A stretch of 57,889 nucleotides of DNA from Lachnospiraceae bacterium (lineage in GTDB: Bacteria; Bacillota; Clostridia; Lachnospirales; Lachnospiraceae): NCBI GenBank assembly GCA_017517305.1, contig JAFWZV010000014.1, positions 1 to 57,889 on the forward strand, in the 5' to 3' direction. Made by a program: the position numbers and the translations under genes. The notes beneath the pieces were generated by a model. The model saw nothing but the letters and a program-made list of their open reading frames with translations. It searched no databases and had not been told where the DNA came from. Below are positions 41,181 to 47,440 of the stretch, piece by piece. The first letter of the stretch is position 1. Each line of letters starts with the position of its first letter.

Positions 41181-41843
41181 ATGGCAAGTATAGCAATTGA
41201 TGGTCCTGCAGGAGCAGGAAAGAGTACTATAGCTAAGCAGGTGGCTAAGAAATTAGGATATATATATGTTGATACTGGAGCAATGTATAGAGCTATAGCT
41301 CATTATCTTGTACAAAACAATATTGATATAGAGAATAATGATGAATTAAAATCTGCTTGTGAAAGTATTAATATAGCTATAAAATACGAGGATGATGCGC
41401 AACAGGTTTATCTTAATGGAGAAAATGTAACTCCATTTTTGAGAACTGAGGAAACAGGTAATATGGCATCAAAGTCATCAGCAAAAGCGCCTGTCCGTGA
41501 GGCACTTCTTGGATTACAGAGAGAGATGGCCAAAGATTATAATGTTGTAATGGATGGAAGAGATATTGGTACAAATGTATTGCCTGATGCAGAGGTGAAA
41601 ATTTATCTTACTGCTTCTTCAAAGGAAAGAGCTAATCGAAGATATAAAGAGCTTATTGAAAAAGGTGAAGTAACGGATTTAGATAAAATAGAGGCAGATA
41701 TTATTGAAAGAGATGAACGTGATATGAACCGTGAAATTGCTCCTCTAAAGCAGGCAGATGATGCGGTTTTGGTAGATAGCTCATATATGACCATTGATGA
41801 AGTGGTTGCTAGAATCATGTCAGAAGCTGAAAAGATAGCTTAA
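41181..41843 (+). CDS. cmk: Cytidylate kinase
   Basis: Phosphorylates CMP and dCMP. It has 220 residues, with P-loop DGPAGAGKST (about 5-14), CMP-binding DTGAMYRAIA, DGRDIGTNVLPDA and the lid region SSKERANRRYKEL. It lies 28 bases before ispH-S1; cmk next to ribosomal S1 is conserved widely among bacteria. Confidence 0.97.
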   Translation: MASIAIDGPAGAGKSTIAKQVAKKLGYIYVDTGAMYRAIAHYLVQNNIDIENNDELKSACESINIAIKYEDDAQQVYLNGENVTPFLRTEETGNMASKSSAKAPVREALLGLQREMAKDYNVVMDGRDIGTNVLPDAEVKIYLTASSKERANRRYKELIEKGEVTDLDKIEADIIERDERDMNREIAPLKQADDAVLVDSSYMTIDEVVARIMSEAEKIA

Positions 41844-41871: not shown

Positions 41872-43815
41872 ATGGAGATTGTACTAGCGAAAACAGCTGG
41901 CTTTTGCTTTGGCGTTAAAAGAGCTGTGGATACTGTTTATAATGAAATAAATAATGATAGAGATGTTGAAGTTTTCACTTATGGTCCAATAATTCATAAT
42001 GAAGAGGTTGTTAATGACCTTGATAAAAAGGGAGTAGTTGTCATAGATGAAAATAAATCTCTTTCGGAATATTTTCAAAATGACAAGAAACATAAGGTAA
42101 TTATAAGATCTCATGGTGTAGGAAAACATGTATATGATGAACTAGAGGAATATGGAGTAAAAATTATAGATGCAACCTGCCCATTTGTTAAAAAAATTCA
42201 TAAAATAGTTGCAGAGGAAAGTGCTAAAGGCAAGGGAATTATTATAATTGGAGATGAAAACCATCCAGAGGTTGTAGGCATAAAGGGCTGGTCTGTTAGT
42301 GAACCCATTATATTAGATACCATTGATAAGGCTTCAAATATTAAACTAGAAGAAAATAAAGAATATGTTATTGTTGCTCAAACTACATTTAATAGCATAA
42401 AATTCAAAGAATTAGTTGAAATATTTACAAAAAAATATTATAATGTTTATGTTTATTCAACTATTTGCAATGCTACAGAGGAAAGGCAGAAGGAAGCTAG
42501 TAAATTAGCTTCGGAAGTTGATACTATGATAGTAATTGGTGGTAAAAATAGCTCGAATACACAAAAGCTTTATAATATAAGCAAAAAAGAATGCAAAAAT
42601 ACTTACTACATTCAGACACTCGTTGACTTGGATTTAACTGTTATTGAATCCGCTAAGAGGGTAGGTATTACAGCGGGGGCATCTACCCCAAATCATATTA
42701 TTAAGGAGGTTCAAAACAGTATGTCAGAATTAAGTTTTGAAGAATTATTAAATCAATCAGAGGAGAATGGTAATGCTGTTAGACCTGGTAGCGTTATTGA
42801 GGGTAAGGTTATCGGCGTAAAGTCAGATGTAATTTATGTTGATATTCAGTATAAGGCTGATGGTATTATTACAAGAGCAGAGTATTCAAATACTCCAGGT
42901 TTAGATCTTACAACAGTTGTTAGTGTTGGAGATCCTATAACAGTTAAGGTTATTAAGACCAATGACGGTGAGGGACAGGTTCTTCTTTCATACAAGAAGG
43001 TTGCTGCTGAGAAGTCATACGAGAAGCTTCAGGAGGCATTTGACAACGAGGAAGTTCTTACTGCAAAGGTTACTGAGGTAGTTTCTGGTGGTATTAGTGT
43101 TATGGTAGACGAGTGTAAGGTATTTATTCCTGCTAGTCTTGTTTCAGACACTTACGAGAAGAATTTAGACAAGTACATGGGTCAGGAAATTCAGTTTGTA
43201 TTAACTGAGTTTAAGCCTAAGAATAGAAGAATTATCGGTGACAGAAAGAAGCTTCTTGTTGCAAGTAAGGCAGAGGCTGCTAAGAAGTTATTTGAGACAA
43301 TTAATGTTGGTGATGTTGTTGAAGGTACAGTTAAGAATGTTACACCATTTGGAGCATTTATCGATTTAGGTGGTGCAGATGGACTTCTTCATATCTCTGA
43401 GATGTCTTGGGGAAGAATTGACGATCCAAAGTCAGTTGTTAAGGTTGGAGATACAGTTAAGACATTTATTAAGGATATTAATGGAGATAAGATTGCTCTT
43501 AGCTTAAAGTTTGATGATAACAATCCTTGGGCTAATGCAGTTGAGAAGTATGCAATTGGAACTGAGGTTACTGGAAAGATTGCAAGAATGACTGCATTTG
43601 GAGCATTTGTAGAGTTAGAGCCAGGTGTTGATGCATTATTACATGTTTCTCAGATTTCTAATGAGCATATTGAGAAGCCAGAGGATGTATATCAGATTGG
43701 TCAGGAGATTACAGCTAAGGTTGTAGATTTCAAGGAAGAGGAGAAGAAGATTAGTCTTAGTGTTAAGGCTTTATTACCTCCAGTTGATACTACTGAGGAA
43801 GCTACAGAGGAGTAA
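41872..43815 (+). CDS. ispH: IspH (HMBPP reductase) fused to a four-domain ribosomal S1-like protein
   Basis: Fusion of 647 residues known in Clostridia. Residues 1-283 are 4-hydroxy-3-methylbut-2-enyl diphosphate reductase, the last step of the MEP isoprenoid route, with all three Fe-S cysteines: Cys12 (GFCFGVKRAV), Cys103 (DATCPF) and Cys199 (ICNATEE). Residues about 300-640 hold four S1 RNA-binding domains (starts near VIEGKVIGV, LTAKVTEV, VVEGTVKNV, EVTGKIARM). The junction (42703-42723) carries a perfect ribosome site and an in-frame ATG, and codon use changes there: the IspH part has 22 AAA and 10 AAG lysine codons, the S1 part 0 and 35. Both a fusion and a separate S1 protein of 365 residues may be made. 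Confidence 0.95.
   Translation: MEIVLAKTAGFCFGVKRAVDTVYNEINNDRDVEVFTYGPIIHNEEVVNDLDKKGVVVIDENKSLSEYFQNDKKHKVIIRSHGVGKHVYDELEEYGVKIIDATCPFVKKIHKIVAEESAKGKGIIIIGDENHPEVVGIKGWSVSEPIILDTIDKASNIKLEENKEYVIVAQTTFNSIKFKELVEIFTKKYYNVYVYSTICNATEERQKEASKLASEVDTMIVIGGKNSSNTQKLYNISKKECKNTYYIQTLVDLDLTVIESAKRVGITAGASTPNHIIKEVQNSMSELSFEELLNQSEENGNAVRPGSVIEGKVIGVKSDVIYVDIQYKADGIITRAEYSNTPGLDLTTVVSVGDPITVKVIKTNDGEGQVLLSYKKVAAEKSYEKLQEAFDNEEVLTAKVTEVVSGGISVMVDECKVFIPASLVSDTYEKNLDKYMGQEIQFVLTEFKPKNRRIIGDRKKLLVASKAEAAKKLFETINVGDVVEGTVKNVTPFGAFIDLGGADGLLHISEMSWGRIDDPKSVVKVGDTVKTFIKDINGDKIALSLKFDDNNPWANAVEKYAIGTEVTGKIARMTAFGAFVELEPGVDALLHVSQISNEHIEKPEDVYQIGQEITAKVVDFKEEEKKISLSVKALLPPVDTTEEATEE
42703..42723 (+). promoter_or_regulatory. 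Internal Shine-Dalgarno and start codon for the S1 part
   Basis: AAGGAGGT (42703-42710) lies 10 bases before ATG 42721, which is in frame with the fusion and begins MSELSFEELL, just where IspH ends and a linker to the first S1 domain begins. The bases also encode the conserved IspH ending IIKEV, so part of the match could be forced by the protein sequence. Internal initiation is inferred. Confidence 0.6.
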
Positions 43816-45106: not shown

Positions 45107-45127
45107 TAATAATTGTTGGAGAAAAAT

Positions 45128-45724
45128 ATGAGTATTTTAAGAAAAAAAAGAGATGATGATGAATTTATTTCATCAGTAAAGTCTTCGGATAATAAAGAGC
45201 ATATATTTAATAATCTTTTCCAATGGTTTGTTGTAATATTATCAGGAGCCATATTTGGATATGCGTTAATAACTTTTGTATTTCAGACAGTTACTGTAAT
45301 TGGTCCATCTATGAATCCAACACTAGAGGATGGAGAAATTGTAATAGTTAATAAACTTGCTTATAATATTTCAGATATTGATAGATATGATGTTGTTGCT
45401 TATTCTCTTATTGAAGAGGATGGATATTTTGATATAAAAAGAGTTGTTGGAATGCCAGGAGAGACAGTTACAATAAAAGATGGGTATATTTATATCAATG
45501 ATAAACCTCTGCAGAATTCTCCATTCACAGAAAAAATTATTACAGCTGGTTTAGCCTCAGAATCTATTAAACTAGGTGATGGAGAATATTTTGTTCTTGG
45601 TGATAATATTAACAATAGTGAGGACTCTAGATATTCTAATGTTGGAAATATTTCAGAGGTTGAAATTCTTGGAAAAGTCAGCTATATAATAAAATCTGAC
45701 GATAAAAAAGGTAAGGTAAAATAA
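45128..45724 (+). CDS. lepB: Signal peptidase I (first copy)
   Basis: Membrane-bound type I signal peptidase that cleaves exported preproteins on the outer face. The start is ATG 45128, with GGAG overlapped by the upstream TTG. It has 198 residues, one membrane helix at about 38-58. The catalytic serine is in GPSMNPTL (Ser61), the lysine in DIKRVVGMPGE (Lys104), and box E is GDNINNSEDSR. The N-terminal 35 residues are charged and cytoplasmic. It is one base upstream of rbgA and so probably co-translated. Confidence 0.95.
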   Translation: MSILRKKRDDDEFISSVKSSDNKEHIFNNLFQWFVVILSGAIFGYALITFVFQTVTVIGPSMNPTLEDGEIVIVNKLAYNISDIDRYDVVAYSLIEEDGYFDIKRVVGMPGETVTIKDGYIYINDKPLQNSPFTEKIITAGLASESIKLGDGEYFVLGDNINNSEDSRYSNVGNISEVEILGKVSYIIKSDDKKGKVK

Positions 45725-46588: not shown

Positions 46589-47440
46589 ATGAGTAAGGAA
46601 TTAATGGAAGCTGAAGAAACAGTTGAAATTAAAATGGATGAAGAAAAATCCATAGAAGATATTCTTTCTGAGAAACAATTAGAAAAGGATATGAAAAAGG
46701 AAGAAAAGAGAGCAAAGAAAAAGGCAGCTAAAGAAGCTAAAAAAGCTCAAAAGCAAAAAGCTAAAGAAGACAATGATGAGGCTAAAGACGAAGCTTCTTC
46801 AGGGGAAGAAGCAGCAACAACTATAGAAGATGAGACCTCTGATGATAAACCTAATAAGTCCAAAAAACGTAGAAAGAAGAAAAAGAAGCAGACGACAAAG
46901 CCAGAGGATATTAATATAGTAAAGGAATTATTAAGCCTTATTGTATATATTGGAATAGTTGTACTTGCATGTTTTTTAATTATTAATTTTGTCGGTTGTC
47001 GTACCGTAGTTGATGGTTCATCTATGGAGCCAACACTTCATCATGGTGATAATTTATGGGTTGATAAATTGTCATATACCTTTGGTGATCCTGAAAGATT
47101 TGATGCAGTTGTATTTTATTATGATAAGGATACAACATATATTAAGCGTATAATTGGTCTTCCTGGAGAGACAGTACGTATCGACCAAAATGGTAATATA
47201 TTTGTTAATGATATGCTCTTAAAGGAAAATTATGGAAAGGAAAGAATTCTTCCGTCTAATATAGGAAGAGCAAGTCAAACTATTTTGCTTGGTGAAGATG
47301 AATATTTTGTATTGGGAGATAATCGTAACAACAGCCAGGATAGTAGAATGTCATCTGTAGGTAATGTACAAAGGGAAGATATTCTGGGTAAGGCTGTATT
47401 CAGAATATATCCATTGAGAGATTTTGGTATTGTAGATTAA
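46589..47440 (+). CDS. lepB: Signal peptidase I (second copy) with long charged N-terminal region
   Basis: Second type I signal peptidase, 283 residues. The first 108 residues are a very hydrophilic cytoplasmic tail of alternating Lys and Glu (EEKRAKKKAAKEAKKAQ style), probably coiled coil or disordered. The membrane helix is at about 111-133. The catalytic serine is in DGSSMEPTL (Ser145), the lysine in YIKRIIGLPGE (Lys186), and box E is GDNRNNSQDSR. The protease domain resembles the first copy but is not identical, so this is an old duplication. A stem-loop follows. Confidence 0.93.
   Translation: MSKELMEAEETVEIKMDEEKSIEDILSEKQLEKDMKKEEKRAKKKAAKEAKKAQKQKAKEDNDEAKDEASSGEEAATTIEDETSDDKPNKSKKRRKKKKKQTTKPEDINIVKELLSLIVYIGIVVLACFLIINFVGCRTVVDGSSMEPTLHHGDNLWVDKLSYTFGDPERFDAVVFYYDKDTTYIKRIIGLPGETVRIDQNGNIFVNDMLLKENYGKERILPSNIGRASQTILLGEDEYFVLGDNRNNSQDSRMSSVGNVQREDILGKAVFRIYPLRDFGIVD

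Follow-up and report, generated by a model that had tools for sequence, protein, structure and literature searches.

The window, i.e. the whole 57,889-nucleotide stretch of contig JAFWZV010000014.1 from a Lachnospiraceae bacterium, carries one long open frame in which an IspH (LytB) domain is continued by ribosomal protein S1 (table 1). The 647-residue translation scored 718.1 bits against NCBIfam NF000907 (bifunctional IspH/S1; cut-off, 624), and Pfam found LYTB followed by four S1 stretches in a single frame, which is the domain order of the fusion. The S1 part alone, read from the ATG at 42721, scored 381 bits against the NCBIfam model of ribosomal protein S1 (cut-off, 368); from this ATG to the stop at 43815 it encodes 364 residues, correcting the 365 of the first-pass annotation. 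The frame provides the only IspH match in the genome and, among nine S1 matches, is the sole one with four S1 matches. A cytidylate kinase gene (41181-41843) lies upstream, and two neighbouring frames (45113-45724 and 46589-47440) are presumably signal peptidase-like, as judged from a motif in their translations.

Table 1. Features of the IspH-S1 locus, in coordinates of the window.
Feature	Position	Strand	Remarks
IspH-S1 open frame	41872..43815	+	647 aa; open throughout
IspH (LytB) part	41872..42720	+	Pfam LYTB 3-284; weak codon bias
Predicted embedded promoter TTGAAA-17-TATAAT	42416..42444	+	in ispH; synonymous conservation within Lachnospiraceae
Possible structured S1 mRNA leader (lead only)	42598..42689	+	window z −3.3 versus synonymous shuffles
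Internal Shine-Dalgarno AAGGAGGT	42703..42710	+	within ispH codons Lys-Glu-Val; conserved in relatives
Internal start codon ATG	42721..42723	+	11 nt after AGGAGG; conserved in relatives
S1 part	42721..43815	+	364 aa from internal ATG; four S1 stretches; strong codon bias

At the junction of the two parts, the first-pass annotation had pointed out a perfect AAGGAGGT 10 bases before an in-frame ATG, which was confirmed, and had proposed that S1 is also made separately from this ATG. The combination goes beyond chance, given that the 228,156 coding bases considered in the same genome contain 109 intragenic AGGAGG motifs, five of which have an in-frame ATG 5-12 nt downstream. The set used for comparison comprised 297 loci, 292 of them with the IspH end; 284 were unique and, of these, 160 were fused. 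With the Shine-Dalgarno (SD) core defined as [AG]GG[AG]GG at the IspH x-Glu codons, the core was present in 155 of the 160 fused loci, and in all 155 a start codon follows it (ATG at 11 nt, 144 loci; ATG at 8 nt, 6 loci; GTG at 11 nt, 5 loci). The finding was replicated in a further set of fused loci, where the core was present in 41 of 41 (at 11 nt, 36 ATG and 1 GTG; at 8 nt, 4 ATG). The 28 fused loci from Lachnospiraceae all have the SD and the in-frame ATG, 27 of them at 11 nt and L016 at 8 nt, and the residues encoded between the two vary. The 11 nt spacing is far commoner among fused loci than that of 8 nt (149 of 155 versus 6); in the window genome it is uncommon, being found in four of the 105 genes with GGAGG (mode, 8 nt). 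Five fused loci lack the core at the usual place, namely L191, with a shifted AGGAGG, L195, L197, L213 and L241, the last four being possible true single-product fusions and, as such, useful contrasts. In L213, an AGGAGG is found further along, with an ATG after it. Weak RNA structure around the start was found in 95 of 97 loci of other families and in 17 of the 28 from Lachnospiraceae, and not in the window, so that it was rejected as a Lachnospiraceae trait.

Codon choice at the site is also informative. GAG encodes this Glu in 152 of the 155 fused loci, versus 51.5 expected from the usage of each gene (z 18.2, with loci taken as independent), and the Lys codon preceding it is AAG in 84 of 85. 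The two further columns in which at least 60% of the loci have Glu serve as a control with the same relatedness; GAG accounts for 45% and 33% there. In IspH genes with no S1 match within at least 1.4 kb downstream, the core was found in one of 20, and GAG in two of nine with Glu. The check proposed in the first-pass annotation, i.e. synonymous conservation of site and ATG among clostridial fusions, was passed on these figures: when fused loci are compared with the IspH controls, the SD and the start codon lie in frame and are kept beyond what the protein demands.

A search of 200 Lachnospiraceae genomes gave a match in all 200, and the loci compared, which were chosen from the list in a non-random manner, comprise 28 fused (L002-L029) and 82 not fused (L030-L111). 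Most Lachnospiraceae relatives carry S1 as a gene apart, an arrangement that the first-pass annotation does not mention. In all 82 of the loci not fused, ispH lies directly upstream of S1 and overlaps it by 13-31 nt. The SD falls within the same ispH codons, and S1 starts 9 nt (66 loci) or 10 nt (15 loci) after it, for a total of 81 of 82. In L034, no start codon is found at the homologous place of S1, the next in-frame ATG being two codons on, and in L109 the S1 start is TTG. The same site is found to serve S1 in three frames, i.e. +1 at 9 nt, +2 at 10 nt and 0 at 11 or 8 nt. With the S1 ATG in frame 0 the ispH stop is lost, and the annotation therefore reads 'fusion'; this is the case of the window, where the S1 start inside ispH is in frame 0 and not in another frame. 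The most fitting view is of an ispH/S1 overlap whose frame would move by small changes between SD and ATG, the fusion being its frame-0 state.

Outside Lachnospiraceae, the core was found in eight of the 16 split loci that have S1 next to ispH. Six belong to family f39 (L333, L351, L353, L355, L360 and L361), with the S1 start from −19 to +2 nt of the ispH stop, and their split looks independent of the Lachnospiraceae one. The other two are L358 and L382, the latter keeping the core although the S1 match starts 47 nt past the ispH stop. In L320, L321, L349 and L350, S1 lies 10-25 nt past the ispH stop and the codon at the Glu position is GAA or GAC. By eye, four f39 split loci read GTG TCA GAA at 10 nt. 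The distribution of the fused state was estimated in a phylum sample of 398 genomes, 152 of which gave a match to the full-length fusion profile (E ≤ 1e-120), almost all outside Lachnospiraceae and as one long frame. A further 157 IspH-bearing genomes without a strong match were divided into 114 with a frame of at least 590 aa, i.e. of fusion length, and 43 with a shorter one, a count that leaves out about 80 more genomes of the phylum without a strong match. On these figures, the fused state appears to be the usual one outside Lachnospiraceae in the genomes sampled. In a FastTree tree of 110 Lachnospiraceae and 15 outgroup rows, obtained with a quick method and with long outgroup branches, fused rows branch first within Lachnospiraceae. 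The tree requires 12 changes between fused and split states when the outgroup is taken as fused, and 13 when it is taken as a group of its own, with the starred branches forcing 10. The two forms thus seem to have interchanged about ten or more times in Lachnospiraceae, and the simplest reading would be that of an ancestral fusion, repeated splitting and some re-fusion.

A second signal was detected further upstream within ispH, where a promoter-like sequence ends 277 nt before the internal ATG. Among Lachnospiraceae loci, the best promoter-like site coincides in position with this one in 24 of the 28 fused loci and in 75 of the 85 split ones. The Val codon that carries the −35 is GTT in every locus with Val (23 fused and 77 split; expected, 7.2 and 20.8). 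Likewise without exception, the Glu codon of the promoter is GAA (23 fused and 72 split loci; expected, 15.1 and 44.4) and the Asp codon in the −10 region is GAT (16 fused and 62 split loci). The Butyrivibrio record L280 has Ile in place of Val and TTGAAA is still present. Other tests speak against the promoter. The window promoter taken alone does not stand out from synonymous shuffles, promoter-like sites around the window gene show no excess (15 versus 13.0 in shuffles), and tests on single loci reached p ≤ 0.05 in only four of the 28 fused loci and 11 of the 85 split ones. Mean values of scans of the whole ispH were 10.14 versus 9.41 in synonymous shuffles for fused loci and 10.02 versus 9.33 for split ones, with p ≤ 0.05 in only one of 28 and one of 82, respectively. 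Furthermore, synonymous conservation in Lachnospiraceae ispH is also found elsewhere, from −105 to −18 relative to the Glu codon, and no embedded promoter was found in 104 loci of other families. The case for a predicted, sigma-A-like promoter rests on the codon-by-codon comparison, in which −35 and −10 hexamers, the 17-nt spacer and synonymous conservation came together in Lachnospiraceae only.

The ispH codons upstream of the S1 start may also hold a structured leader of an S1 mRNA. The leader of the window folds more stably than its synonymous shuffles (table 1); mean z values lean in this direction too, at −0.77 for the 28 fused loci and −1.07 for the 41 split loci included, out of 82, but another ispH stretch reaches −0.7. 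RNAalifold revealed no significant structure in 110 Lachnospiraceae leaders (z −1.2), and the leader had no match in Rfam. In 98 loci of other families, a hairpin within the codons for A-G-A-S-T-P was indicated by two free third-position pairs that ranked first and second of 45 (53 paired versus 37.8 expected, p 0.00015; 48 versus 36.8, 0 of 500 permutations). The pairs were not replicated in 41 further loci (20 versus 17.4, p 0.23; 15 versus 14.3, p 0.54), and nine of 20 control IspH sequences without S1 also pair at the hairpin position (7.7 expected). With replication having failed, the leader hairpin stays a lead.

Codon usage in the two halves of the frame was analysed with a reference of 27 genes presumed to be highly expressed (from the ribosomal-protein, rpoB/C and fusA regions and identified from position and translation) and a background of 228 genes taken from the window plus 13 stretches of its genome. 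On the resulting scale, 213 of the 228 background genes lie above the IspH part and 11 above the S1 part. The best change point was found after codon 295 (z 9.7; equalled in 0 of 2000 permutations), with a z value of 9.3 at codon 283, the internal ATG being codon 284; the opening dozen S1 codons are still background-like. The switch in lysine codons, from 22 AAA and 10 AAG in the IspH part to 0 and 35 in the S1 part, also cited in the first-pass annotation, holds for the window and fails as a general marker, since 21 of the 28 fused relatives in Lachnospiraceae change the same way and seven the opposite way, and only 50 of 97 loci of other families show it. More consistent are the higher use of C-ending F/Y/I/N codons in S1 (in Lachnospiraceae, 27 of the 28 fused loci and 73 of the 82 split ones) and the avoidance of ATA (27 of 28 and 82 of 82), both weaker in other families (65 of 97 and 72 of 97). 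The four fusions without the SD site show both shifts, so that codon bias by itself is no proof of a separate product and was rejected as such. The contrast between the halves may have causes other than different synthesis rates, such as the mutation pattern, DNA signals embedded in ispH or stronger selection on S1 within one product. This explanation seems rather unlikely, although it fits the contrast in the fusions without the site, its weakening outside Lachnospiraceae and the AT-rich conserved codons of ispH in this family. The codon usage of S1 does match that of the highly expressed genes of the genome, and the same shift is found where S1 is a separate gene (the 73 of 82 above).

Other explanations of the site itself fare worse. 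The in-frame AGGAGG, located as it is at the domain boundary, could slow elongation and give IspH time to fold ahead of S1 synthesis, with no initiation taking place. A pause of this kind is very improbable by taking into account that it needs no start codon, yet each of the 155 SD-bearing fusions has ATG or GTG 8 or 11 nt on, and that split relatives start S1 from the site in other frames. Slightly less credible still is that the site is a relic, i.e. that the fusion is recent and the sole present product, and the old ribosome site of S1 has not decayed. The 82 split relatives sampled do have a separate S1 gene with that very site. However, the site is kept, at synonymous positions, in numerous families of the phylum that usually have the fused form, fused rows lie at the base of Lachnospiraceae on the tree, and it is the continued synonymous conservation in old fusions that such a relic would not display. 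Least probable of all is that the fusion protein needs the Lys/Glu-Glu-Val...Met residues, with the DNA motif as a side effect. Even with Glu and Val widely shared at these positions, GAG, which is not in equal use with GAA, is far from the usage of the genes themselves, some loci in which Arg (AGG) or Gly (GGG) stands there retain a core rich in G (GGGAGG in 8, AGGGGG in 5), and IspH genes without S1 have GAA in seven of nine cases.

Thus, the comparison shows the predicted ribosome site and start to be kept at the DNA level and to accompany S1 at the end of ispH, and it strongly supports the dual-start reading (core in 155 of 160 and 41 of 41 fused loci, in one of 20 controls and in 82 of 82 split relatives). 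With considerable confidence, it is proposed that the locus makes two products, the IspH-S1 fusion and S1 from the nested start. Ribosomes starting at 41872 would yield the full IspH-S1 protein because the junction has no stop, and those starting at the ATG at 42721, guided by AAGGAGGT in the ispH codons, would yield an ordinary 364-residue S1. In Lachnospiraceae, S1 would probably also have its own mRNA from the promoter inside ispH, making it possible for S1 to be in excess of the fusion. Actual initiation at the internal ATG, promoter activity and the ratio of the products are what we infer from sequence comparison, and so is the assignment of the fusion, already made in the first-pass annotation, as the lower-level product. 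A broader joint reading, to which we lean only slightly, is that of a nested but complete S1 gene, with its own start phylum-wide and its own promoter in Lachnospiraceae, in which the locus passes from fused to split and back through a change of one or two bases between SD and ATG, and has done so about ten times or more within a single family. Free S1 would then be the main ribosomal S1 and the fusion a side product, and the ispH codons may hold an S1-responsive leader.

In the available parts of Rao et al. 2015 (PMC4746011), the IspH-RPS1 'Rosetta stone' fusion is described as one polypeptide, 447 fusion proteins are reported, and no other ispH or rps1 gene is found in the organisms concerned. 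IspH activity was almost unchanged without the S1 repeats, and the role of the fusion was left open. The present locus shares with this fusion (PMC4746011; NF000907), as far as described there, the domain order, the family and the lack of a second ispH or rps1; the internal start, the embedded promoter and the split relatives are, on the other hand, not mentioned in the parts available. A protein of 46 kDa found to co-purify with C. thermocellum IspH-RPS1 was considered as a candidate free S1 and rejected, for the paper (PMC4746011), in those same parts, assigns it to E. coli Rho on the basis of a mass-spectrometric fingerprint with 69% coverage. The arrangement resembles the bacterial internal in-frame starts, or 'genes within genes', as outlined in the accessible text of PMC11005335, in that an internal SD and start would give an N-terminally shortened product in the same frame; it differs in that the product here would be an entire ribosomal protein, maintained in many families and encoded by a separate overlapping gene in relatives. 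It also resembles, from what could be drawn from PMC3711429, same-strand overlapping pairs with translational coupling, by taking into account that S1 of the split relatives starts inside the ispH end with an overlap of 13-31 nt; the members in frame 0, which are read as fusions, are the new element here. The main text of PMC3711429 gave no match for IspH, LytB or ribosomal protein S1. At the level of titles and abstract openings in the open-access literature, no report of a dual ispH-S1 product or of an internal S1 start was found.

The IspH/S1 fusion proteins in databases are named bifunctional and are cited for a functional link between isoprenoid synthesis and translation. A start signal that serves S1 only is kept in many clostridia, so that two proteins are probably made where the databases list one. 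If S1 is indeed made separately from the conserved internal start, the argument for the isoprenoid-translation link would weaken, annotations across a large phylum would need a second start, and the locus would offer a natural series (fused, +1 overlap, +2 overlap and separate) for studies of how genes fuse and split.
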